Positions 7,648 through 49,102 of a stretch of DNA of 64,000 nt are shown one piece after another. This DNA is from Bradyrhizobium cenepequi (GTDB lineage: Bacteria; Pseudomonadota; Alphaproteobacteria; Rhizobiales; Xanthobacteraceae): positions 62,001-126,000 of the forward strand of contig NZ_JAGKJI010000024.1 in NCBI RefSeq assembly GCF_020329485.1. Reading direction: 5' to 3'. Positions within the stretch are counted from its first letter, which is position 1; every line of letters starts with the position of its first letter. The notes under the pieces are model-generated. The model saw nothing but the letters and a program-made list of their open reading frames with translations, was not told where the DNA came from and did no database searches. Both the position numbers and the translations under genes were made by a program.

Positions 7648-8439
7648 ATGACGAGCGCACGCCTGAGCACGCTCGCGTCTCTGCGCGGGCACATCGAGCG
7701 CCTTGAGGCATCCAACGAAGCGCATGCGCTGCAGCGGATCGCGCTTGGCCATGCCGGTGCTGACGCGATGCTCAAGGGCGGGCTTGCGAAAGCTGCGGTG
7801 CACGAAGTGTTTGCCGAGGGTCACCAAGGCGCTTCCGCCACCGGCTTCATCGCAGGCCTCGCCGGCCGTCTTGCCGCGCGCAAGCCGCTGGTCTGGGTGC
7901 GGCAGGATTTTTCCGAAATCGAATCCGGTGCGCTGTCGATGAGCGGCCTGTCGGAACTCGGCCTCGATCCGCGTCTCCTCGTCACCGTGCGCGCCGCCGA
8001 CATCGACAATGCCTTGCGCACCACGGCCGATGCGCTCGCCTGCGACGCGTTAGGCGCCGTCATCATGGAGGTCTGGGGCGAGTCCAAGCAGCTCGATCTG
8101 GTCGCAAGCCGCAAGCTGACGCTTGCCTCGCAATCATCAGGCGTTCCCGCGCTGCTGCTCCGCCTGGCGGCAACGCCGCTTCCCTCCACCGCGGAAACCA
8201 GATGGATCGTGCGCGCAGCGCATTCGCCGCCGGGCGCCAGTTGGAGCACGTGGGGTGCGCCTCTGTTCGATGCGCAGCTCGTTCGCAATCGTCATGGCCC
8301 GGTCGGGCGATGGATCATGGAATGGAAATGTGATGAGTGCCTTTTCAGTGAACCGTCGTATCCTCAGCCTGTGGCTGCCACGCCTGCCCATCGACCGGAT
8401 CAAGCGGCAACTGGCGCGAAGCAGCGCCTCGCCGGTTGA
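7648..8439 (+). CDS. imuA: ImuA, RecA-like accessory protein of the SOS mutasome
   Basis: 263 aa. ImuA proteins are RecA/SulA-related and act with ImuB and the DnaE2 polymerase in error-prone translesion synthesis after DNA damage. The N-terminal half (LRGHIERLEA, then HEVFAEGHQGASATGFIAGL) and the segment VWVRQDFSEIESGALSMSGL are characteristic; a standard Walker A is not evident. The C-terminus carries the conserved MEWKCDECLFSE. The ATG at 7648 has AGGAG seven bases upstream, behind a LexA-controlled promoter. The last 107 bp overlap the start of imuB in another frame, tight coupling typical of this cassette. Confidence 0.92.
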   Translation: MTSARLSTLASLRGHIERLEASNEAHALQRIALGHAGADAMLKGGLAKAAVHEVFAEGHQGASATGFIAGLAGRLAARKPLVWVRQDFSEIESGALSMSGLSELGLDPRLLVTVRAADIDNALRTTADALACDALGAVIMEVWGESKQLDLVASRKLTLASQSSGVPALLLRLAATPLPSTAETRWIVRAAHSPPGASWSTWGAPLFDAQLVRNRHGPVGRWIMEWKCDECLFSEPSYPQPVAATPAHRPDQAATGAKQRLAG

Positions 8440-10093
8440 AACTATTTCTCACCACACGGGCGCTGCATCGCCCCCTCTCCCGCTTGCGGGAGAGGGTTGG
8501 GGTGAGGGTGTTTCCGCGGGCGAGACTCTTCGTATGGAGAGAGCCCTCACCCGGATCGCATCTGACGATGCGATCCGACCTCCCCCGCAAGCGGGGGAGG
8601 TGAAGAAAGAACTCCCAAGTGTGGTTGTCATCAAACAGCACAATGCGCTGGTGATCCACTCGCTCGACGACACCGCCGCGCGAAGCGGCCTGTCGATCGG
8701 CCTGCCGCTCGCCAATGCCCGCGCGATCTGTCCGGAATTGACGGTGTACGATGCCGACGAAGCCGCCGATGCCAAGACGCTCAACGACATCGCCGACTGG
8801 TGCGACCGCTTCACACCCCTGGTGGCGCTCGATCAGCCCTACGGTCTCTTCCTCGATATCACCGGCTGCGCCCATCTGTTCGGCGGCGAACGTGCGATGC
8901 TGCAGATCGTCTGCGGCGCGCTGACCCGGCGCGGCTTTGCCGTCAGCGGCGCGATCGCCTCGACCTCGGTCTGCGCCCGCACGCTGACGCGGCATTCCTC
9001 AGGCAGGAGCATCGAGGATGGTGCGGAGGCCGAGGCCGTTGCCCCGTTGCCGATCTCGGCATTGGGAGCCGATGACGCCATCACCAAAGGCCTGCGCCGC
9101 GCCGGCTTGAAGACGATCGGCGATGTCGCCGCCCGCGCGCGCCATGAGATCGCGGCGCGTTTCGGCGCGGCTTTCACCACGCGGCTCGAGCATGCGCTGG
9201 GGCAGGGCGATGCGCCGATCAGCCCGCGCAAGCCATTGCCTGACTACATCGTCGAAAAGCGTTTTCCCGAGCCGATCACGACCGAGCCTGTCATCGCGAT
9301 GATGCTGCAGAGCCTCGCCAAGATGCTGGTCCAAGCAATGGACAAGCAGGGCAAGGGCGCGCGGAAGCTGGAAGCAGGCTTCTTCCGCACCGACGGCGCG
9401 GTGCGCACGCTTGCCGTCGAGACCGGGCGTGCGGTGACCAAGCCCGAAGTGATCGACCGCCTGTTCCGCGAGCGGCTCGACGCACTGAGCGATCCCCTCG
9501 ATCCCGGCTTCGGCTTCGACCTGATCCGCCTGTCCGCTGGTCGTACCGAGATCGTGGTGCAGCAGCAGCGCGATCTCAATGCTCATGTCCATGACAATGA
9601 CGAGCTTGCTGCGCTGATCGACCGCATCGCAGCCCGCATTGGGGGAAAGCGCGTGGTCGTGCACCTGCCGGAGGATACCCATATCCCCGAGCGCGCGGTG
9701 CTTGCCGCGCCTGCGCAGCATCATCTGGCCGCAACGTCGCAAGCCGCCTGGCCGGCGCGCACCGAGGGCGAGCCGCCGCTCCGTCCGCTGCGACTGTTCG
9801 AAAGGCCAGAGCCGATCAAGGTGCCGTTCGCTACCGTGCCGGATGGACCGCCGCATCACTTCACCTGGCGGCGCGCCACGCATCAGGTGGTGCGGGTCGA
9901 GGGGCCCGAGCGCATCGCCATGGAATGGTGGCAGCGGGACGGAAAAGTGCTGACGCGCGACTATTTCCGTGTCGAAGACGAGCAGGGTCTGCGCTTCTGG
10001 ATCTTCCGTGATGGTCTCTACGAAAACGAACTGATCGACGAAGACGGCAAGCCCGTTCCCGCCAACTGGTTCGTGCATGGGCTGTTCGCATGA
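8333..10093 (+). CDS. imuB: ImuB, catalytically inactive Y-family polymerase homologue, with in-frame repeat insert
   Basis: 586 aa. ImuB is the hub that links ImuA, the beta clamp and DnaE2. The start at 8333 gives MSAFSVNRRILSLWLPRLPI, the usual N-terminus; the longer frame from 8123 is antecedent imuA sequence read out of frame. The catalytic acidic residues of active Y-family enzymes are not at their usual first position, as known for ImuB. Residues about 47-92 (PLPLAGEGWGEG to QAGEVKKE) are foreign to the family and are encoded by a palindromic repeat (8473-8600) that keeps the frame open. After it the fold resumes with VVVIKQHNALVIHSLD. The stop overlaps the dnaE2 start as ATGA. Confidence 0.92.
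   Translation: MSAFSVNRRILSLWLPRLPIDRIKRQLARSSASPVETISHHTGAASPPLPLAGEGWGEGVSAGETLRMERALTRIASDDAIRPPPQAGEVKKELPSVVVIKQHNALVIHSLDDTAARSGLSIGLPLANARAICPELTVYDADEAADAKTLNDIADWCDRFTPLVALDQPYGLFLDITGCAHLFGGERAMLQIVCGALTRRGFAVSGAIASTSVCARTLTRHSSGRSIEDGAEAEAVAPLPISALGADDAITKGLRRAGLKTIGDVAARARHEIAARFGAAFTTRLEHALGQGDAPISPRKPLPDYIVEKRFPEPITTEPVIAMMLQSLAKMLVQAMDKQGKGARKLEAGFFRTDGAVRTLAVETGRAVTKPEVIDRLFRERLDALSDPLDPGFGFDLIRLSAGRTEIVVQQQRDLNAHVHDNDELAALIDRIAARIGGKRVVVHLPEDTHIPERAVLAAPAQHHLAATSQAAWPARTEGEPPLRPLRLFERPEPIKVPFATVPDGPPHHFTWRRATHQVVRVEGPERIAMEWWQRDGKVLTRDYFRVEDEQGLRFWIFRDGLYENELIDEDGKPVPANWFVHGLFA
8473..8600 (+). repeat. Palindromic repeat element inserted in frame in imuB
   Basis: About 130 bp with three perfect hairpins. 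CCCTCTCCCGC/GCGGGAGAGGG is at 8473-8496, GGATCGCATC/GATGCGATCC at 8553-8576 and CCTCCCCCGC/GCGGGGGAGG at 8579-8600. GGGTGAGGG (about 8500) can also pair with CCCTCACCC (about 8544), giving a compound cruciform. It has no stop codon in the imuB frame. A near-identical copy lies in dnaE2 at 12648-12780, in the same reading frame. Confidence 0.9.
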
Positions 10094-13000
10094 TGGAGCC
10101 TGAGCCCGACTATGCCGAGATCGGCATATCAAGCAATTTCTCCTTCCTCCGCGGCGGATCGGATCCGCGCGCCTATGTGCATCAGGCGAGCATATACCGC
10201 ATTCCCGTGATCGGGCTTGCCGATCACAACACGCTCGCCGGCGTGGTGCGCGCCTACAAGGAACTCGAGAACCCCAAGGTAAAACACCCGCCAAAACTCC
10301 TGATCGGTTCGCGCATCGTCTTCATGGATGGCACGCCTGACATCCTGGTCTATCCGCGCGACCGCGCGGCTTACGGCCGGCTGTGCCAGCTTCTCACCCG
10401 CGGCAAGCGGGGCGATGACATCAAGCGGATCGAAAAGGGCGAGTGCCATCTGAAGCTGAGTGATCTTTTGGAGTTCGCCGAAGGCCAGCTCCTGGTGCTG
10501 TCATTGCCGCATCGTTTCGAGGCGGCCAAGGTGCTTGATCTGCTCGCGCGGTTGAAGGCGAGCCGTGCCGAGGGGGTCTGGCTCGCCGCAAGCCTGCTCT
10601 ATCGCGGCGACGACAAGCGTCGTTTGGCGCGGTTGCATCACCTTGCAACGAAAGCCGAAGTGCCGCTGCTCGCGACCAACGAGGTGCTCTATCACCATCC
10701 CGCGCGCCGTCCCCTGCAGGACGTGCTCACCTGTATCAGGGAGAAGACGACGATCGACGCGATCGGCAGGAAGCTGGAAGCCAATGCCGAGCGGCATCTG
10801 AAGCCAGCTTACGAGATGGCCCGGCTGTTCCGCGATTTCCCTGATGCGATCGCGGAGACCATGCGCTTTGCAGGTCGCATCAGCTTCTCGCTCGACCAGC
10901 TCAAATACCAATATCCTGATGAGCCGGTGCCGCCCGGCAAGACCGCGCAGCAGCATCTCGAAGACCTGACCTGGGCCGGCGTTGACCATTATTTCGGCGG
11001 TGATATTCCCGACAAGCTCCGTGCCACCTTGCACAAGGAGCTCGCGCTGATCGCCGAGCTGAAATACGCGCATTACTTCCTGACCGTGCACGACATCGTC
11101 CGTTACGCGCGCAGCCAAGGCATTTTGTGCCAGGGGCGGGGATCTGCGGCGAACTCGGCTGTCTGCTACGTGCTCGGCATCACCTCGGTCGATCCGACCA
11201 AGGTCGATCTGTTGTTCGAGCGCTTCATCTCGAAAGAGCGGCTGGAGCCGCCCGATATCGACGTTGATTTCGAGCATTCGCGGCGCGAGGAGGTGATGCA
11301 ATATGTCTATCGCCGTTACGGCCGGCATCGCGCCGCGATCATCGCGACCGTCATCCACTACCGTCCGCGCAGCGCGATCCGCGACGTCGGCAAGGCGCTG
11401 GGGCTGACGGAGGACGTCACTGCCGCGCTCGCCGATACCGTGTGGGGAAGCTGGGGCAAGGGCCTCAACGACATGCAGGTGAAGCAGGCCGGACTCGATC
11501 CGAAGAATGCGATGATCGGGCTCGCTGTCGATCTCGCCACCGAGCTGATCGAATTCCCGCGCCATCTCTCGCAGCATGTCGGCGGTTACGTGCTGACGCA
11601 GGACCGGCTCGACACCTATGTGCCGATCGGCAATGCCGCGATGGACGACCGCACTTTCATCGAATGGGACAAGGACGACGTCGATGCGCTCAACATGATG
11701 AAGGTCGACGTCTTGGCGCTGGGCATGCTGACCTGCATCCGCAAGAGCTTTGATTTGATCGCCGAGCACAAGGACAAGCGATACGAGCTGGCTACGGTCC
11801 CGCAGGACGATCCCAAAGTCTACGACATGCTGTGCCGCGGTGAATCGCTAGGCGTGTTCCAGGTCGAGAGCCGCGCGCAGATGAACATGCTGCCGCGGCT
11901 GAAGCCGCGAACCTTCTATGACCTCGTCATCGAGGTCGCGATCGTGCGCCCGGGGCCGATCCAGGGCGACATGGTGCATCCCTATCTGCGCCGGCGAAAC
12001 AAGCAGGAAAAAGAGAGCTACCCGTCGCCATCGCCCGAGCACGGTCCTCCGGACGAATTGTATAATGTCCTGCATAAGACGCTTGGCGTGCCGCTATTCC
12101 AGGAGCAGGCGATGCGGATTGCCATCGAAGCCGCAAAGTTCACCTCCGAAGAGGCCAACGGCCTGCGGCGTTCGATGGCGACCTTCCGCAACCTCGGCAC
12201 CATCGGCAAATACGAATCCAAGCTGATCGGCAACATGGTCGCGCGCGGCTACGATGGCGAATTCGCCAGAAGCTGCTTCGACCAGATCAAGGGCTTTGGC
12301 TCTTACGGCTTCCCGGAAAGTCACGCCGCGAGCTTCGCGCAACTCGTCTACATCTCCTCCTGGCTCAAGCATCATCATCCAGACGCTTTCTGCTGCGCGC
12401 TGCTCAACTCGCAGCCGATGGGCTTTTACGCGCCCGCGCAGATCGTCAGCGACGCCCGCAAGAACGATGTCGAGGTCCGTGAGATCGATGTGTCCTATAG
12501 CTTCGCCCAGAACACGCTGGAGGAGGGCACCGGCAAACATTGCGCCGTCCGCCTCGGCTTCCGCCAGATCGACGGTTTCAATTGGAAAGATCCAGATGAG
12601 GAGAGGCTGAAGCAAATCCAGGCGTCATTTCGGAAGATGCCTGCGCTCCCTCTCCCGCTTGCGGGAGAGGGTCGGGGTGAGGGTCTCTCCGCGGGCGAGA
12701 ACCTTCGTGTGGAGAGAGCCCTCACCCGGATCGCATCTAGCGATGCGATCCGACCTCCCCCGCAAGCGGGGGAGGTGAAGCAGGCAGAATTCTCTTTGAT
12801 CGAACCGGTGGCGCCGCAAGCTCCCACCTCTCCCCAGCGGGGAGAGGTCGACTTGCACATGACCATGTGCAAGTCGGGTGAGGGGGCTCAGGTCCCACGA
12901 GAGACCGCGCCCCTCACCCGGCGCGGAGCCTGTGCTCGGACGGCGCAAAGCGCCGATCCGAGTACGCCGACCTCTCCCAATGGGAGAGGTGAAGAAAGCA

Positions 13001-13815
13001 ACGACTGGGCCGATCGCATCGTCGCAGCGCGGCAGCGGCGTCCCTTTACCTCGCTGGAGGACTTTGCCCGTGACACCGGCCTGCCCAAGCGCGCGTTGAT
13101 CCTGCTCGCCGACGCCGATGCCTTCCGCTCGATTGGCCTCGATCGCCGCGCGGCGCTCTGGGCGGTGCGGCGGCTGCCCGATGACGTGCCATTGCCGCTG
13201 TTCGAAGCCGCTGTTGCCCGCGAGCAGCCGGACGAGAACGCAAAACCATTGCCGCAGATGCCGCGGCAGGAACAGGTGGTCGCCGACTACCAGACCATCC
13301 GCCTGTCGCTGAAGGGCCATCCGATGGAATTCCTGCGCGCGATGTTTGCAAAAGAGCGCGTCGTGCCCTGCAATGAGGTCTGCCATCGCAACGACCGTCG
13401 TCGCGTCAGCTGCGCCGGCGTCGTGCTGGTGCGGCAGCGTCCGGGCAGCGCCAATGGCGTGGTGTTCATGACGCTCGAGGACGAGACCGGGATCGCCAAT
13501 ATCGTGGTGTGGCCGAAGGTGATGGAGCAATACCGGAAAGAAGTGATGGGCGCACGGCTGATCCTGGTCGAAGGCTATATCCAGAGCAGCCCGGAGGAGG
13601 TGACCCACCTGGTCGCGCAACGCATGATCGACCGCTCCTACGACCTCTTCAATCTCTCTAACGACGCGTTCAGCGCAAAGCCCGCCGTGCCCGCCGGCCC
13701 CGCTCTGGTCGAACCCCTCAACGATGACCGCCGCGACCACGGCGAAAACACCCCGCAAAAAATCCGCCACCCCCGCAACGTGCGCATCCTGCCGGCTTCG
13801 CGGGATTTTCATTGA
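10090..13815 (+). CDS. dnaE2: DnaE2 (ImuC) error-prone DNA polymerase III alpha subunit with in-frame repeat inserts
   Basis: 1241 aa, about 100 longer than is usual. This is the C-family polymerase that carries out SOS mutagenic lesion bypass with ImuA/ImuB. The N-terminal PHP domain has SNFSFLRGGSDP and GLADHNTLAGVVRAY. The polymerase active-site acid motif PPDIDVDFEHSRREEVMQYV is near residue 386. Late in the protein are GLPKRALILLADADAF (helix-hairpin-helix) and an OB-fold (RRVSCAGVVLVRQRPGSANG). Residues about 853-968, between GFRQIDGF and WADRIVAARQ, are not family sequence and come from two palindromic repeats. The start ATG overlaps the imuB stop; ATG 10093 is an alternative. It ends in the family-typical SRDFH. 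Confidence 0.93.
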   Translation: MMEPEPDYAEIGISSNFSFLRGGSDPRAYVHQASIYRIPVIGLADHNTLAGVVRAYKELENPKVKHPPKLLIGSRIVFMDGTPDILVYPRDRAAYGRLCQLLTRGKRGDDIKRIEKGECHLKLSDLLEFAEGQLLVLSLPHRFEAAKVLDLLARLKASRAEGVWLAASLLYRGDDKRRLARLHHLATKAEVPLLATNEVLYHHPARRPLQDVLTCIREKTTIDAIGRKLEANAERHLKPAYEMARLFRDFPDAIAETMRFAGRISFSLDQLKYQYPDEPVPPGKTAQQHLEDLTWAGVDHYFGGDIPDKLRATLHKELALIAELKYAHYFLTVHDIVRYARSQGILCQGRGSAANSAVCYVLGITSVDPTKVDLLFERFISKERLEPPDIDVDFEHSRREEVMQYVYRRYGRHRAAIIATVIHYRPRSAIRDVGKALGLTEDVTAALADTVWGSWGKGLNDMQVKQAGLDPKNAMIGLAVDLATELIEFPRHLSQHVGGYVLTQDRLDTYVPIGNAAMDDRTFIEWDKDDVDALNMMKVDVLALGMLTCIRKSFDLIAEHKDKRYELATVPQDDPKVYDMLCRGESLGVFQVESRAQMNMLPRLKPRTFYDLVIEVAIVRPGPIQGDMVHPYLRRRNKQEKESYPSPSPEHGPPDELYNVLHKTLGVPLFQEQAMRIAIEAAKFTSEEANGLRRSMATFRNLGTIGKYESKLIGNMVARGYDGEFARSCFDQIKGFGSYGFPESHAASFAQLVYISSWLKHHHPDAFCCALLNSQPMGFYAPAQIVSDARKNDVEVREIDVSYSFAQNTLEEGTGKHCAVRLGFRQIDGFNWKDPDEERLKQIQASFRKMPALPLPLAGEGRGEGLSAGENLRVERALTRIASSDAIRPPPQAGEVKQAEFSLIEPVAPQAPTSPQRGEVDLHMTMCKSGEGAQVPRETAPLTRRGACARTAQSADPSTPTSPNGRGEESNDWADRIVAARQRRPFTSLEDFARDTGLPKRALILLADADAFRSIGLDRRAALWAVRRLPDDVPLPLFEAAVAREQPDENAKPLPQMPRQEQVVADYQTIRLSLKGHPMEFLRAMFAKERVVPCNEVCHRNDRRRVSCAGVVLVRQRPGSANGVVFMTLEDETGIANIVVWPKVMEQYRKEVMGARLILVEGYIQSSPEEVTHLVAQRMIDRSYDLFNLSNDAFSAKPAVPAGPALVEPLNDDRRDHGENTPQKIRHPRNVRILPASRDFH
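12648..12780 (+). repeat. Palindromic repeat element inserted in frame in dnaE2 (copy of the imuB element)
   Basis: Same modules, order and frame as the imuB element at 8473-8600. CCCTCTCCCGC/GCGGGAGAGGG is at 12648-12671, then the GATCGCATC/GATGCGATC hairpin, then CCTCCCCCGC/GCGGGGGAGG near 12754-12775. The encoded peptide differs from the imuB insert at only a few positions (for example GEGRGEGLSAGENLRVERAL against GEGWGEGVSAGETLRMERAL). Confidence 0.9.
12826..12990 (+). repeat. Second, different composite palindromic element in frame in dnaE2
   Basis: Starts about 45 bases after the first element. Its hairpins are ACCTCTCCCC/GGGGAGAGGT (12826-12848), CGACTTGCACAT/ATGTGCAAGTCG (12849-12876), an imperfect CTCGGACGGCGC/GCGCCGATCCGAG (about 12936-12963) and ACCTCTCCCA/TGGGAGAGGT (12970-12990). 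The architecture is related to the first element (terminal purine-run hairpins plus internal stems) but the internal modules differ. No stop occurs in the dnaE2 frame. Confidence 0.85.
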
Positions 13816-13835: not shown

Positions 13836-14092
13836 CTCCGTCATTCCGGGGCGCGCCAACGGGTCCGCGCGGAGCGCGGCCCGATGACAGGCTCCACGCG
13901 AACCCGGAATCCATTCGTCCACTTGCGCAAGCGGCGAAATGGATTCCGGGCTCGATGCTAACGTATCGCTCCGGAATGACCCCTCATCCCGAGGAGCCGC
14001 GAAGCGGCGTCTCGAGGGATGGGCCGCAAAAACCTCTCACTGTCGTTCCGGCGCGCCGCGATGCAGCGAGCTACGATGTGCAATTGCACATC
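13836..14092. repeat. Intergenic palindromic repeat cluster after dnaE2
   Basis: The 400 bp between dnaE2 and the next start hold no gene, but three repeat modules. The first is a palindromic unit bounded by TCATTCCGGGGCG and GCTCCGGAATGA (13839-13979). The second is CCTCATCCCGAGGAGCCGCG and its partner CGGCGTCTCGAGGGATGGG (13983-14025). The third is the perfect 18-bp palindrome GATGTGCAATTGCACATC at 14075-14092. The same modules recur at 15117-15310, and the second also at 26285-26330. Confidence 0.8.
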
Positions 14093-15116: not shown

Positions 15117-15310
15117 AACCCTCATCCCGAGGAGCTGCGAAGCGGCGTCTCGAGGGATGGGCCACGGGCATCTCACTCTCCGTCATTCCGGGGCGTGCGC
15201 AGCGCGAGCTATGATGTGCAATTGCACATCAGAGAATCCATTCGTCCATTTGTGCAGGTGGTGATATCGATTCCGGGCTCATCGCTTCGCGATGCCCCGG
15301 AATGACGGAG
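15117..15310. repeat. Intergenic palindromic repeat cluster after the Usp gene
   Basis: Carries the same modules as 13836-14092: CCTCATCCCGAGGAGCTGCG with CGGCGTCTCGAGGGATGGG (15119-15164), TCATTCCGGGGCG closed by CCCCGGAATGA (15183-15306), and GATGTGCAATTGCACATC at 15213-15230. Two copies of the composite on either side of a single gene. Confidence 0.8.
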
Positions 15311-31133: not shown

Positions 31134-31305
31134 GTTTTCCGCGCTTTCGAGCCGCAGACCGGTCCCTGCGGCGGGTTAAAAAATCGGACGGGGATTTTGA
31201 ACGTCGGGCAGGATGTCGCGACCAATATGTGTGGGAGCGATCCATTCCTCCCCGTCAGCTATATCAGGCGCGAGCGCCCATCCACCCCAAGCGCCCATAT
31301 GGCTT

Positions 31306-31344
31306 GACCCGTCCGGTTGTCCCCCCGGACGGGTCTTTCATTTT
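31306..31344 (+). terminator. Rho-independent terminator
   Basis: A perfect 11-bp stem GACCCGTCCGG / CCGGACGGGTC (31306-31316, 31325-31335) with an 8-base loop, then TTTCATTTT. It lies 170 bp after the subtilase remnant in the 454-bp gene-free stretch 31134-31587. It could end the sigma operon or an unannotated small RNA; the intervening 31140-31300 contains GGCGCGAGCGCC and other short stems but no gene. Confidence 0.75.
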
Positions 31345-48463: not shown

Positions 48464-48499
48464 CGTAGGATGGGTAGAGCGAAAGCGAAACCCATCATC
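48464..48499 (+). repeat. REP sequence, left flank of RAYT
   Basis: CGTAGGATGGGTAGAGCG followed by AAAGCGAAACCCATCATC. Internally palindromic (GATGGGT / ACCCATC) with an asymmetric foot. It lies 22 bases before the transposase start and is nearly identical to the reverse complement of the right flank at 49071-49102. Confidence 0.9.
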
Positions 48500-48520
48500 T
48501 AACCATACGAGCGCCTGACA

Positions 48521-49051
48521 ATGACTGACTACCGCCGCAACTTTGTTCCCGGCGGTAGCTTCACTGTGAACCTAACGGACCGGCGGCTGCAGTTACTAAC
48601 GGAGCACATCGAGACGCTGCGCCTTGCCTTTCGGGAGACCCGCGCGCGTCATCCATTTACGATTGATGCTATGGTGGTGCTGCCGGATCATCTCCATGCA
48701 GTTTGGACGTTGCCCGAGGGGGACACAGCCTTCGCAACGCGCTGGCGGCAGATCAAGTCAACGTTTTCGCGCAATCTTTCATCTGACGAACCGATCTCAG
48801 CCAGTCGTGCCGCAAAGGGCGAACGCGGCATATGGCAGCGGCGATATTGGGAGCATACCATTCGCGACGAGGACGATTTCGCGCGCCACATCGACTACAT
48901 TCATATCAATCCGGTCAAGCATGGACTTGTGACCCGGGTCAGGGATTGGCCGTATTCGTCATTCCACCGGATGGTGAGGCTCGGCATCTACCCAGAGGAT
49001 TCGGCAGGGGACATTGCGGAGCTTGGCGGGAATTTCGGCGAGCGATCTTAG
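48521..49051 (+). CDS. REP-associated tyrosine transposase (RAYT, Y1_Tnp family)
   Basis: 176 aa, full length for this family of single HUH/Y1 transposases, which cut and join REP hairpins as single strands. The HUH site is DAMVVLPDHLHAVWTLP (HLH near residue 57), and the catalytic Tyr lies in HIDYIHINPVKHGLV (about 125-139). A C-terminal WPYSSFHRMVRLG motif is typical. Flanked by inverted REPs at 48464-48499 and 49071-49102, the organisation of an autonomous REPtron, possibly still able to spread REPs. No frameshift or stop. Confidence 0.93.
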   Translation: MTDYRRNFVPGGSFTVNLTDRRLQLLTEHIETLRLAFRETRARHPFTIDAMVVLPDHLHAVWTLPEGDTAFATRWRQIKSTFSRNLSSDEPISASRAAKGERGIWQRRYWEHTIRDEDDFARHIDYIHINPVKHGLVTRVRDWPYSSFHRMVRLGIYPEDSAGDIAELGGNFGERS

Positions 49052-49070
49052 AGCGACGATATGACGATAT

Positions 49071-49102
49071 GATGGGTTTCGCTGCGCTCTACCCATCCTA
49101 CG
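49071..49102 (-). repeat. REP sequence, right flank of RAYT (inverted)
   Basis: GATGGGTTTCGCTGCGCTCT followed by ACCCATCCTACG. Its reverse complement matches the left flank except for one missing base and one or two changes in the loop. The two REPs face each other around the transposase gene. Confidence 0.9.

Follow-up and report, generated by a model that had tools for sequence, protein, structure and literature searches.

Palindromic elements recur in frame at two linkers of the ImuB and DnaE2 mutasome proteins in Bradyrhizobium

Palindromic repeats stand in frame inside imuB and dnaE2, two genes of the mutasome, in Bradyrhizobium cenepequi. In related genomes, several families of such elements turn over between species at the same two protein linkers, with many copies at very few permissive sites rather than spread through coding DNA. 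The stretch analysed here, called the window, comprises 64,000 nucleotides (contig NZ_JAGKJI010000024.1, positions 62,001 to 126,000) of a genome of 8.47 Mb in 188 contigs. On balance, and with some reserve, permissive linkers in these conditionally needed proteins probably collect in-frame palindromic elements much as short convergent spacers do.

The elements of the window

A preliminary description of the window, made from its letters alone, had reported two palindromic copies that share a reading frame, encode near-identical peptides and leave both genes unbroken, all of which stands. By pairwise comparison, positions 8469-8605 and 12644-12780 align over 137 nt with 93% identity and no gap, and the profile of their family, here called A, bounds the copies at 8473-8605 and 12648-12780 (133 bp each), with 8 differences in 132 nucleotides. 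Both are read on the same strand and in the same frame as PLPLAGEG[W/R]GEG..QAGEVK, 39 of 44 residues being identical when counted by eye, and both form a strong palindromic RNA fold relative to shuffled sequences (z of -9.7 and -10.2). The open reading frames (ORFs) continue across the inserts from 8123 to 10093 in imuB and from 10090 to 13815 in dnaE2. That description was nevertheless incomplete, since dnaE2 also holds an element of a different family, C, at 12826-12990 (E 9.1e-33 in a search whose profile was seeded partly from this same element) and, by eye, close upstream of the A insert, a half-element head (CGTCATTTCGG, about 12623-12641). The profile search did not report this head as family D; relatives carry complete family D elements at the same site. 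The features are the following.

7648-8439, plus strand: imuA-like ORF of 263 residues, overlapping the start of imuB, with no repeat match inside
8333-10093, plus strand: imuB, Y-family polymerase-like mutasome protein of 586 residues including the insert, with Pfam IMS (PF00817, E 1.7e-8) and IMS_C
8473-8605, plus strand: in-frame palindromic element of family A, lying in the ImuB linker that joins the first strand/helix to the next strand
10090-13815, plus strand: dnaE2, error-prone C-family polymerase of 1241 residues including the inserts, with Pfam DNA_pol3_alpha, finger, HHH_6, OB and PHP
12623-12641, plus strand: possible family D (CGTC-type) remnant, directly before the A element, recognised by inspection
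12648-12780, plus strand: in-frame palindromic element of family A, inside HHH_6
12826-12990, plus strand: in-frame palindromic element of family C, the second to occupy this dnaE2 linker

The ImuB insert follows the first strand/helix, and the Pfam IMS match begins at residue 95, at profile position 22; the DnaE2 inserts lie within the HHH_6 region, whose match begins after them at profile position 36 of 90. Judged from their sequence, the mutasome genes carrying the inserts look functional. The ORF at 7648-8439 gave no match in a Pfam search and owes its putative name to its place in the operon and to synteny.

Recurrence at two linkers across the genus

With the part of ImuB free of the insert as query, 121 related loci were found, the best 80 of which were analysed (71 titled Bradyrhizobium, 2 Tardiphaga and 7 bearing other names of metagenome-assembled genomes). 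The four nearest named imuB relatives of the window are titled Bradyrhizobium and share 93-95% identity with it in the ImuB core. Among these loci the ImuB linker, which follows RILSLWLPRLPIDRI, varies from 11 to 148 residues (76 linkers measured), and the DnaE2 linker, which precedes DWADRIVAAR, from 12 to 103 (68 measured). Families A, B and C fill the former and families A, B, C and D the latter. By profile, and with the window included, the linker is filled in 34 of the 77 scored rows for imuB and in 59 of 74 for dnaE2, a scoring that drops L031 and six other cut dnaE2 rows as well as four rows lacking the 5' part of imuB. In all, the 80 loci hold 43 element copies in imuB (37 loci), 61 in dnaE2 (58 loci) and 13 in 137,564 bp of spacers. 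The profiles match nowhere in the 393,408 bp of other called genes that flank imuB and dnaE2. Family A alone, searched with a profile from the window's genome (29 of the 30 copies fetched, both window copies included), accounts for 18 copies in imuB, 12 in dnaE2, none in other genes and four in spacers, these four sitting at locus ends with their left side unseen. Since the profiles of B, C and D were seeded from linkers, counts elsewhere are minima, and any contrast between linkers and spacers is tilted towards the linkers.

The succession of families is already apparent among the closest species. From the window through its four nearest relatives, the imuB linker contains an A element, a short remnant (L031), a C element (L032), A plus C (L033) and again a short remnant (L034); family C also occurs in imuB or dnaE2 of L032, L033, L034, L036, L061 and L106. 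The fewest state changes on a tree of the linker-free proteins are 13 for A, 17 for B and 2 for C in imuB, and 10 for A, 8 for B, 4 for C and 24 for D in dnaE2; these figures pool gains and losses and come from a tree with 18 of its 78 inner branches open and with recombination possible. Composites are found in dnaE2, namely the possible D remnant followed by A and C in the window, and A within D-type flanks in relatives. The frames remain intact in every gene that could be judged, namely 76 of 76 for imuB (5' part readable) and 73 of 73 for dnaE2 (no contig end inside the gene).

That these segments are inserted repeats absent from relatives, as the preliminary description proposed, is borne out by short linkers in L079, L085, L105, L110 and others. 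Both Tardiphaga loci have short linkers in imuB and in dnaE2, and a clade of 19 Bradyrhizobium rows shows no imuB profile match. At the level of the order, 46 DnaE2 loci were read, including 3 from Bradyrhizobium and 16 selected for gapped matches; among the 43 from outside the genus, 32 have no linker here, one has 7 residues and another 23. The short linkers of the outgroups and of the 19-row clade (for imuB) thus indicate that the segment is not ancestral, so that the finding which that description had named as fatal to it, an ancestral segment shared by all relatives, is not what the relatives hold. In other families of the order, DnaE2 has inserts at neighbouring places (L271-L276, L280, L282 and L283), some with peptides that look repeat-like by eye, such as HSGESRNPEA..DPGLRRGD in L275.

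Distribution in the genome

A census with the four profiles (A-D) covered 2.064 Mb (24%) of the window's genome, some contigs, C36 above all, having been chosen for earlier repeat matches there, and gave 116 copies, of which 60 belong to A, 44 to D, 10 to C and 2 to B. The home-made gene caller, trained on the same genome, places 111 of them in spacers (54 convergent, 51 same-direction, 5 divergent and 1 undetermined), but it starts imuB after the insert, and reassignment of that copy by homology leaves 110. Three more copies that might have been misassigned likewise came up in a check; the coding signal upstream of the repeat is weak or absent in them, and two (C178:107516 and C2:142449) are ambiguous. 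Clear intragenic copies amount to 4 of 116, in imuB (A), dnaE2 (A and C) and the gene of a helicase whose motifs suggest the UvrD/PcrA type. Two others were left uncounted, a weak D match that ends an ORF of 89 residues and a copy that overlaps a called gene. Over the whole genome, a search with the family A peptide gave 71 matches at E up to 1 (118 of 118 candidates scored), among which only imuB (657 residues) and dnaE2 (1267) lie in open frames of more than 600 residues without a stop.

Relative to an assumed empty target of 16 and 18 codons, copy densities in the two linkers come to roughly 12 and 15 per kb. In the window's genome, convergent spacers of up to 60 bp hold 9.5 copies per kb, 23 of 105 being occupied, and all spacers together 0.35 per kb. 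The linker density is therefore close to that of short convergent spacers, which suggests that the linkers behave like free DNA; the same figures led to dropping the idea of a repeat density far above that of any free DNA.

Other genes carrying family A

The helicase gene (G000:C2:442819-445359) carries its A element in frame at about residues 275-310 of 847, between LAQAPS and ICCVGDDDQSIYGW, in reversed orientation and in another frame than in imuB and dnaE2. At the corresponding place, all 30 loci read (L211-L240, from 117 genomes) have a match, 29 to A and 1 to C, the flanking peptides having been read in 17; the query contained the insert and so favoured filled loci, and in 17 further genomes the best match starts only at query residue 43-70, beyond the insert. 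Its presence at one place in 30 loci makes this insert look old and inherited.

A composite A peptide was also compared with 98 genomes of the genus. Among the matches listed, 29 lie in open frames of at least 600 residues without a stop, and these comprise dnaE2 (8), imuB (6), indolepyruvate ferredoxin oxidoreductase (4), frames with no upstream coding signal (9) and two unscored rows (L297 and L303), the dnaE2 and imuB rows being assigned by neighbourhood to ImuB matches or by flanking peptide. In the oxidoreductase (L337-L340; NF009589 in the two checked) the element is in frame near the C-terminal part, with flanks alike in all four rows. Among the matches listed, then, the mutasome leads but is not alone, and the targets are not all repair genes. 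In L311, L312, L314, L315, L342, L343, L344 and L346 an A element lies directly upstream of, and in frame with, an apparent pyrroloquinoline quinone (PQQ)-associated beta-propeller gene (TIGR03866, checked in L346 only), where it is probably 5' untranslated DNA.

Selection on the inserts

The ratio of nonsynonymous to synonymous substitution (dN/dS) is 0.104-0.112 in the ImuB core against four close relatives and 0.076-0.091 in the DnaE2 core against three. The dnaE2 linker gave 1.64, 1.09 and 1.59 in three comparisons (108, 72 and 59 codons). The cores are thus under purifying selection and the compared dnaE2 linker is not. Together with the intact frames, and within the reach of this comparison, this suggests genes kept in working order by selection that takes no account of the peptide.

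Relation to known palindromic elements and to candidate mobilisers

Rickettsia palindromic elements (RPEs), with which the window copies had been compared, are also palindromic, in frame in apparently working proteins and absent from relatives, and the likeness is right in kind as far as the available accounts of RPEs go, function being read here from dN/dS. It is drawn from descriptions of RPEs. Unlike RPEs, which place a large share of copies in many genes, the intragenic copies of Bradyrhizobium are rare and confined to few genes, three of the four clear ones being in imuB and dnaE2, with two more ambiguous.

The single direct forerunner recognised among the papers listed is Di Nocera et al. 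2013 (PMC3733652). In its accessible text, repetitive extragenic palindromes (REPs) are mostly intergenic, near gene 3' ends, with some in frame in replication and repair genes; DnaE2, UvrABCD and RecBCD are named, adaptive tuning is proposed, and recB is hit at about one site in two Xanthomonas. The Bradyrhizobium elements resemble those REPs in being short, palindromic and in frame inside DnaE2, and family D shares with them a CGTC end tag and head-to-head inverted dimers (inspection of a 17-row alignment), the tag varying in some rows to TGTC, as the same text allows. Families A-C, on the other hand, start with neither GTAG nor CGTC, no GTAG tag having been seen at the element ends inspected. 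What goes beyond the accessible part of that work is the occurrence in ImuB, the genus-wide sharing of sites, the turnover of several families at one site and the tests of selection. A literature search lying largely outside subscription papers found no report of ImuB inserts or of recurrent shared sites. The core CCGGAATCTCGAGATTCCGG of Br-REP1 is seen by eye within some family D elements, for instance in L107; Br-REP1 and Br-REP2 occur in spacers and 3' untranslated regions of Bradyrhizobium, according to the available part of Hahn et al. 2016 (PMC5082802). Two further family D elements lie on the minus strand of the window, downstream of dnaE2, at 13836-13980 and 15177-15307, and are called intergenic.

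As for a mobiliser, the whole genome has two Y1_Tnp matches, both flanked by other inverted repeats. The one in the window is a RAYT-like gene at 48464-49102 (match 48566-48904) between inverted repeats at 48464-48507 and 49060-49102, and the second, G000:C1:134424, has flanking repeats of the same kind, pieces of which gave some 12-30 short matches per flank in a 2-Mb sample. Beside these genes no match to families A-C was found at E 10, and a weak D match lies about 1.5 kb off (E 0.01). The flanking repeats of both genes being of another family, the search gave no RAYT gene flanked by repeats of families A-C. No strain pair close enough for a clean comparison of an empty and a filled site was found. 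Elsewhere in the window, the only Rfam match is a Rhizobiales-2 small RNA (RF01723) at 31233-31335 (95.4 bits).

Proposed tolerance of the linkers and alternative explanations

According to the tolerance reading favoured here, several palindromic families would move about genomes, possibly by transposition, and persist mainly in spacers. One linker of ImuB, between the first helix and the second strand of the Y-family fold, and one of DnaE2, in its helix-hairpin-helix region, both presumably surface loops, would tolerate extra unstructured peptide, so that an insertion staying in frame and free of stops could survive there as an approximately neutral addition. For a random full-length insertion the chance of doing so is 0.112 for family A (46 copies), or about 1 in 9, 0.093 for C (9 copies) and 0.153 for D (36 copies). 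Selection against additions may be weak in proteins needed only under DNA damage. An enlarged linker would offer a bigger target, new elements nesting in, replacing or deleting older ones, and the linker would thereby turn over fast while the polymerase cores stay conserved.

Four observations weigh against tolerance as the whole account. Family A is in plus orientation in 30 of 30 copies in imuB and dnaE2, which exceeds what tolerance predicts, the 30 copies not being independent events (family B has 25 plus and 7 minus, family D 28 plus and 6 minus). Linker occupancy is 2-4 times that of short convergent spacers, and tolerance alone may therefore not suffice; it accounts for most of the linker density, and the 2-4 fold excess in occupancy is left over. 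The AlphaFold2 models are poor overall, with a mean predicted local distance difference test (pLDDT) of 56.5 and a predicted template modelling score (pTM) of 0.26 for ImuB, and 43.0 and 0.28 for the C-terminal part of DnaE2; the very low confidence of the inserts (pLDDT about 22-33) would in itself favour tolerance, but non-insert parts are often low too, and the inserts cannot be placed. Finally, many inserts of the same family differ by 2-15% while core dS is 0.15-0.45; divergence is larger in other pairs, reaching 0.50 among the many of family D and 0.31 among some A pairs from imuB. Inserts more alike than core dS allows argue against simple neutral vertical descent; recent insertion from a common active subfamily, conversion, local recombination or a constraint on the DNA would all fit. 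Recombination of the linker between species was rejected as the cause, since dS over the 60 codons that lead up to the dnaE2 linker is at least 0.23 in 21 of 23 chosen pairs; it may still apply to some family B pairs, in which dS drops towards the linker (L035/L059, from 0.35 to 0.18; L064/L076, from 1.79 to 0.52).

The strongest rival takes a resident element for a landing pad that attracts others through nesting, recombination or conversion with genome copies or between imuB and dnaE2, 4 kb apart. This is a serious though minority possibility. The composites in dnaE2 linkers of the window and relatives speak for it, together with the low insert divergence in pairs whose dS before the linker stays high, the 94% likeness of the two window copies, and nearest matches that cross genes (imuB of L060 with dnaE2 of L074, 93%; dnaE2 of L054 with imuB of L076, 94%). 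The dnaE2 copy of the window is, however, nearer to that of L032 (95%) than to its own imuB companion, and the intergenic copy C36:54912 is 92% like the window's imuB copy, so that a common active subfamily explains the similarity equally well; besides, the first filling of empty linkers needs another cause.

Less likely still, the inserts may be kept because they alter the assembly or activity of the mutasome and hence the induced mutation rate, as already proposed for repair-gene REPs in the accessible text of Di Nocera et al. 2013 (PMC3733652). Such tuning would agree with the excess occupancy of the linkers, with hits in both partners of one complex and with the A insert of a third repair-type protein, UvrD. 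It is at odds with the linker dN/dS of 1.09-1.64, in which no constraint on the peptide is seen, with peptides of four different families serving, and with the metabolic indolepyruvate ferredoxin oxidoreductase gene hit in at least four genomes among the matches listed. Coordinated insertion in imuB and dnaE2, suggested by their co-occurrence (Fisher p 0.0003), was not borne out by the 7 independent pairs on the tree, a comparison of low power in which dnaE2 changes the same way in 0.6 and the opposite way in 0.1 on average.

The proposal of the preliminary description, that of a repeat whose open sense frame adapts it to spreading in coding DNA, has been largely refuted and now seems very improbable. 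It is true that imuB, dnaE2 and the oxidoreductase gene use one peptide frame, and that 24 of the 25 mutasome copies compared are nearest to a further mutasome copy (the remaining one, in dnaE2 of L046, being nearest to the intergenic C36:54912, and the imuB copy of L033 an outlier at 77%). This comparison covered copies of 86 bp or more, drew nearly all its intergenic copies from the window's genome and gave a tree of 85 copies with poor resolution; the full-length mutasome A copies have the GATCGCATC hairpin variant in common. Nevertheless, a count anchored at the element end finds the frame of imuB and dnaE2 open in 11 of the 46 full-length copies that lie outside the window (superseding an unanchored 22 of 46), against 18-26 of 46 for each of the other five. 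That frame is the least often open of the six, and openness does not explain its use; together with the predominance of spacers (only 4 of 116 copies clearly intragenic), this argues that the elements do not specialise in coding DNA. The same description had expected intragenic copies to keep one frame without stops, and copies with coding sequence on both sides are stop-free, but they do not keep to one frame, the uvrD copy being reversed. A choice of frame by charge and cysteine was set aside as well, since it fits the window copies but cysteine occurs in 54 of 95 expanded linkers. Finally, an ancestral protein sequence resembling the repeat by chance or borrowing, in favour of which no evidence emerged, is ruled out for practical purposes by the short linkers of outgroups and of many Bradyrhizobium, by the varied families at one site and by more than 100 copies elsewhere.

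Significance

Again and again, and in parallel, palindromic DNA has here furnished new peptide for the same loop in each of two polymerase-type, mutation-making partners whose cores are under selection. More speculatively, and improbably on present evidence, the linkers may be evolvable adaptors of the mutasome, refilled with disposable repeat peptides whose length or flexibility would adjust the joint working of ImuB and DnaE2 and with it a lineage-specific rate of damage-induced mutation. The recurrence at shared sites turns the older observation of palindromic inserts in repair proteins into a natural experiment that is replicated over a genus and offers both filled and empty alleles.

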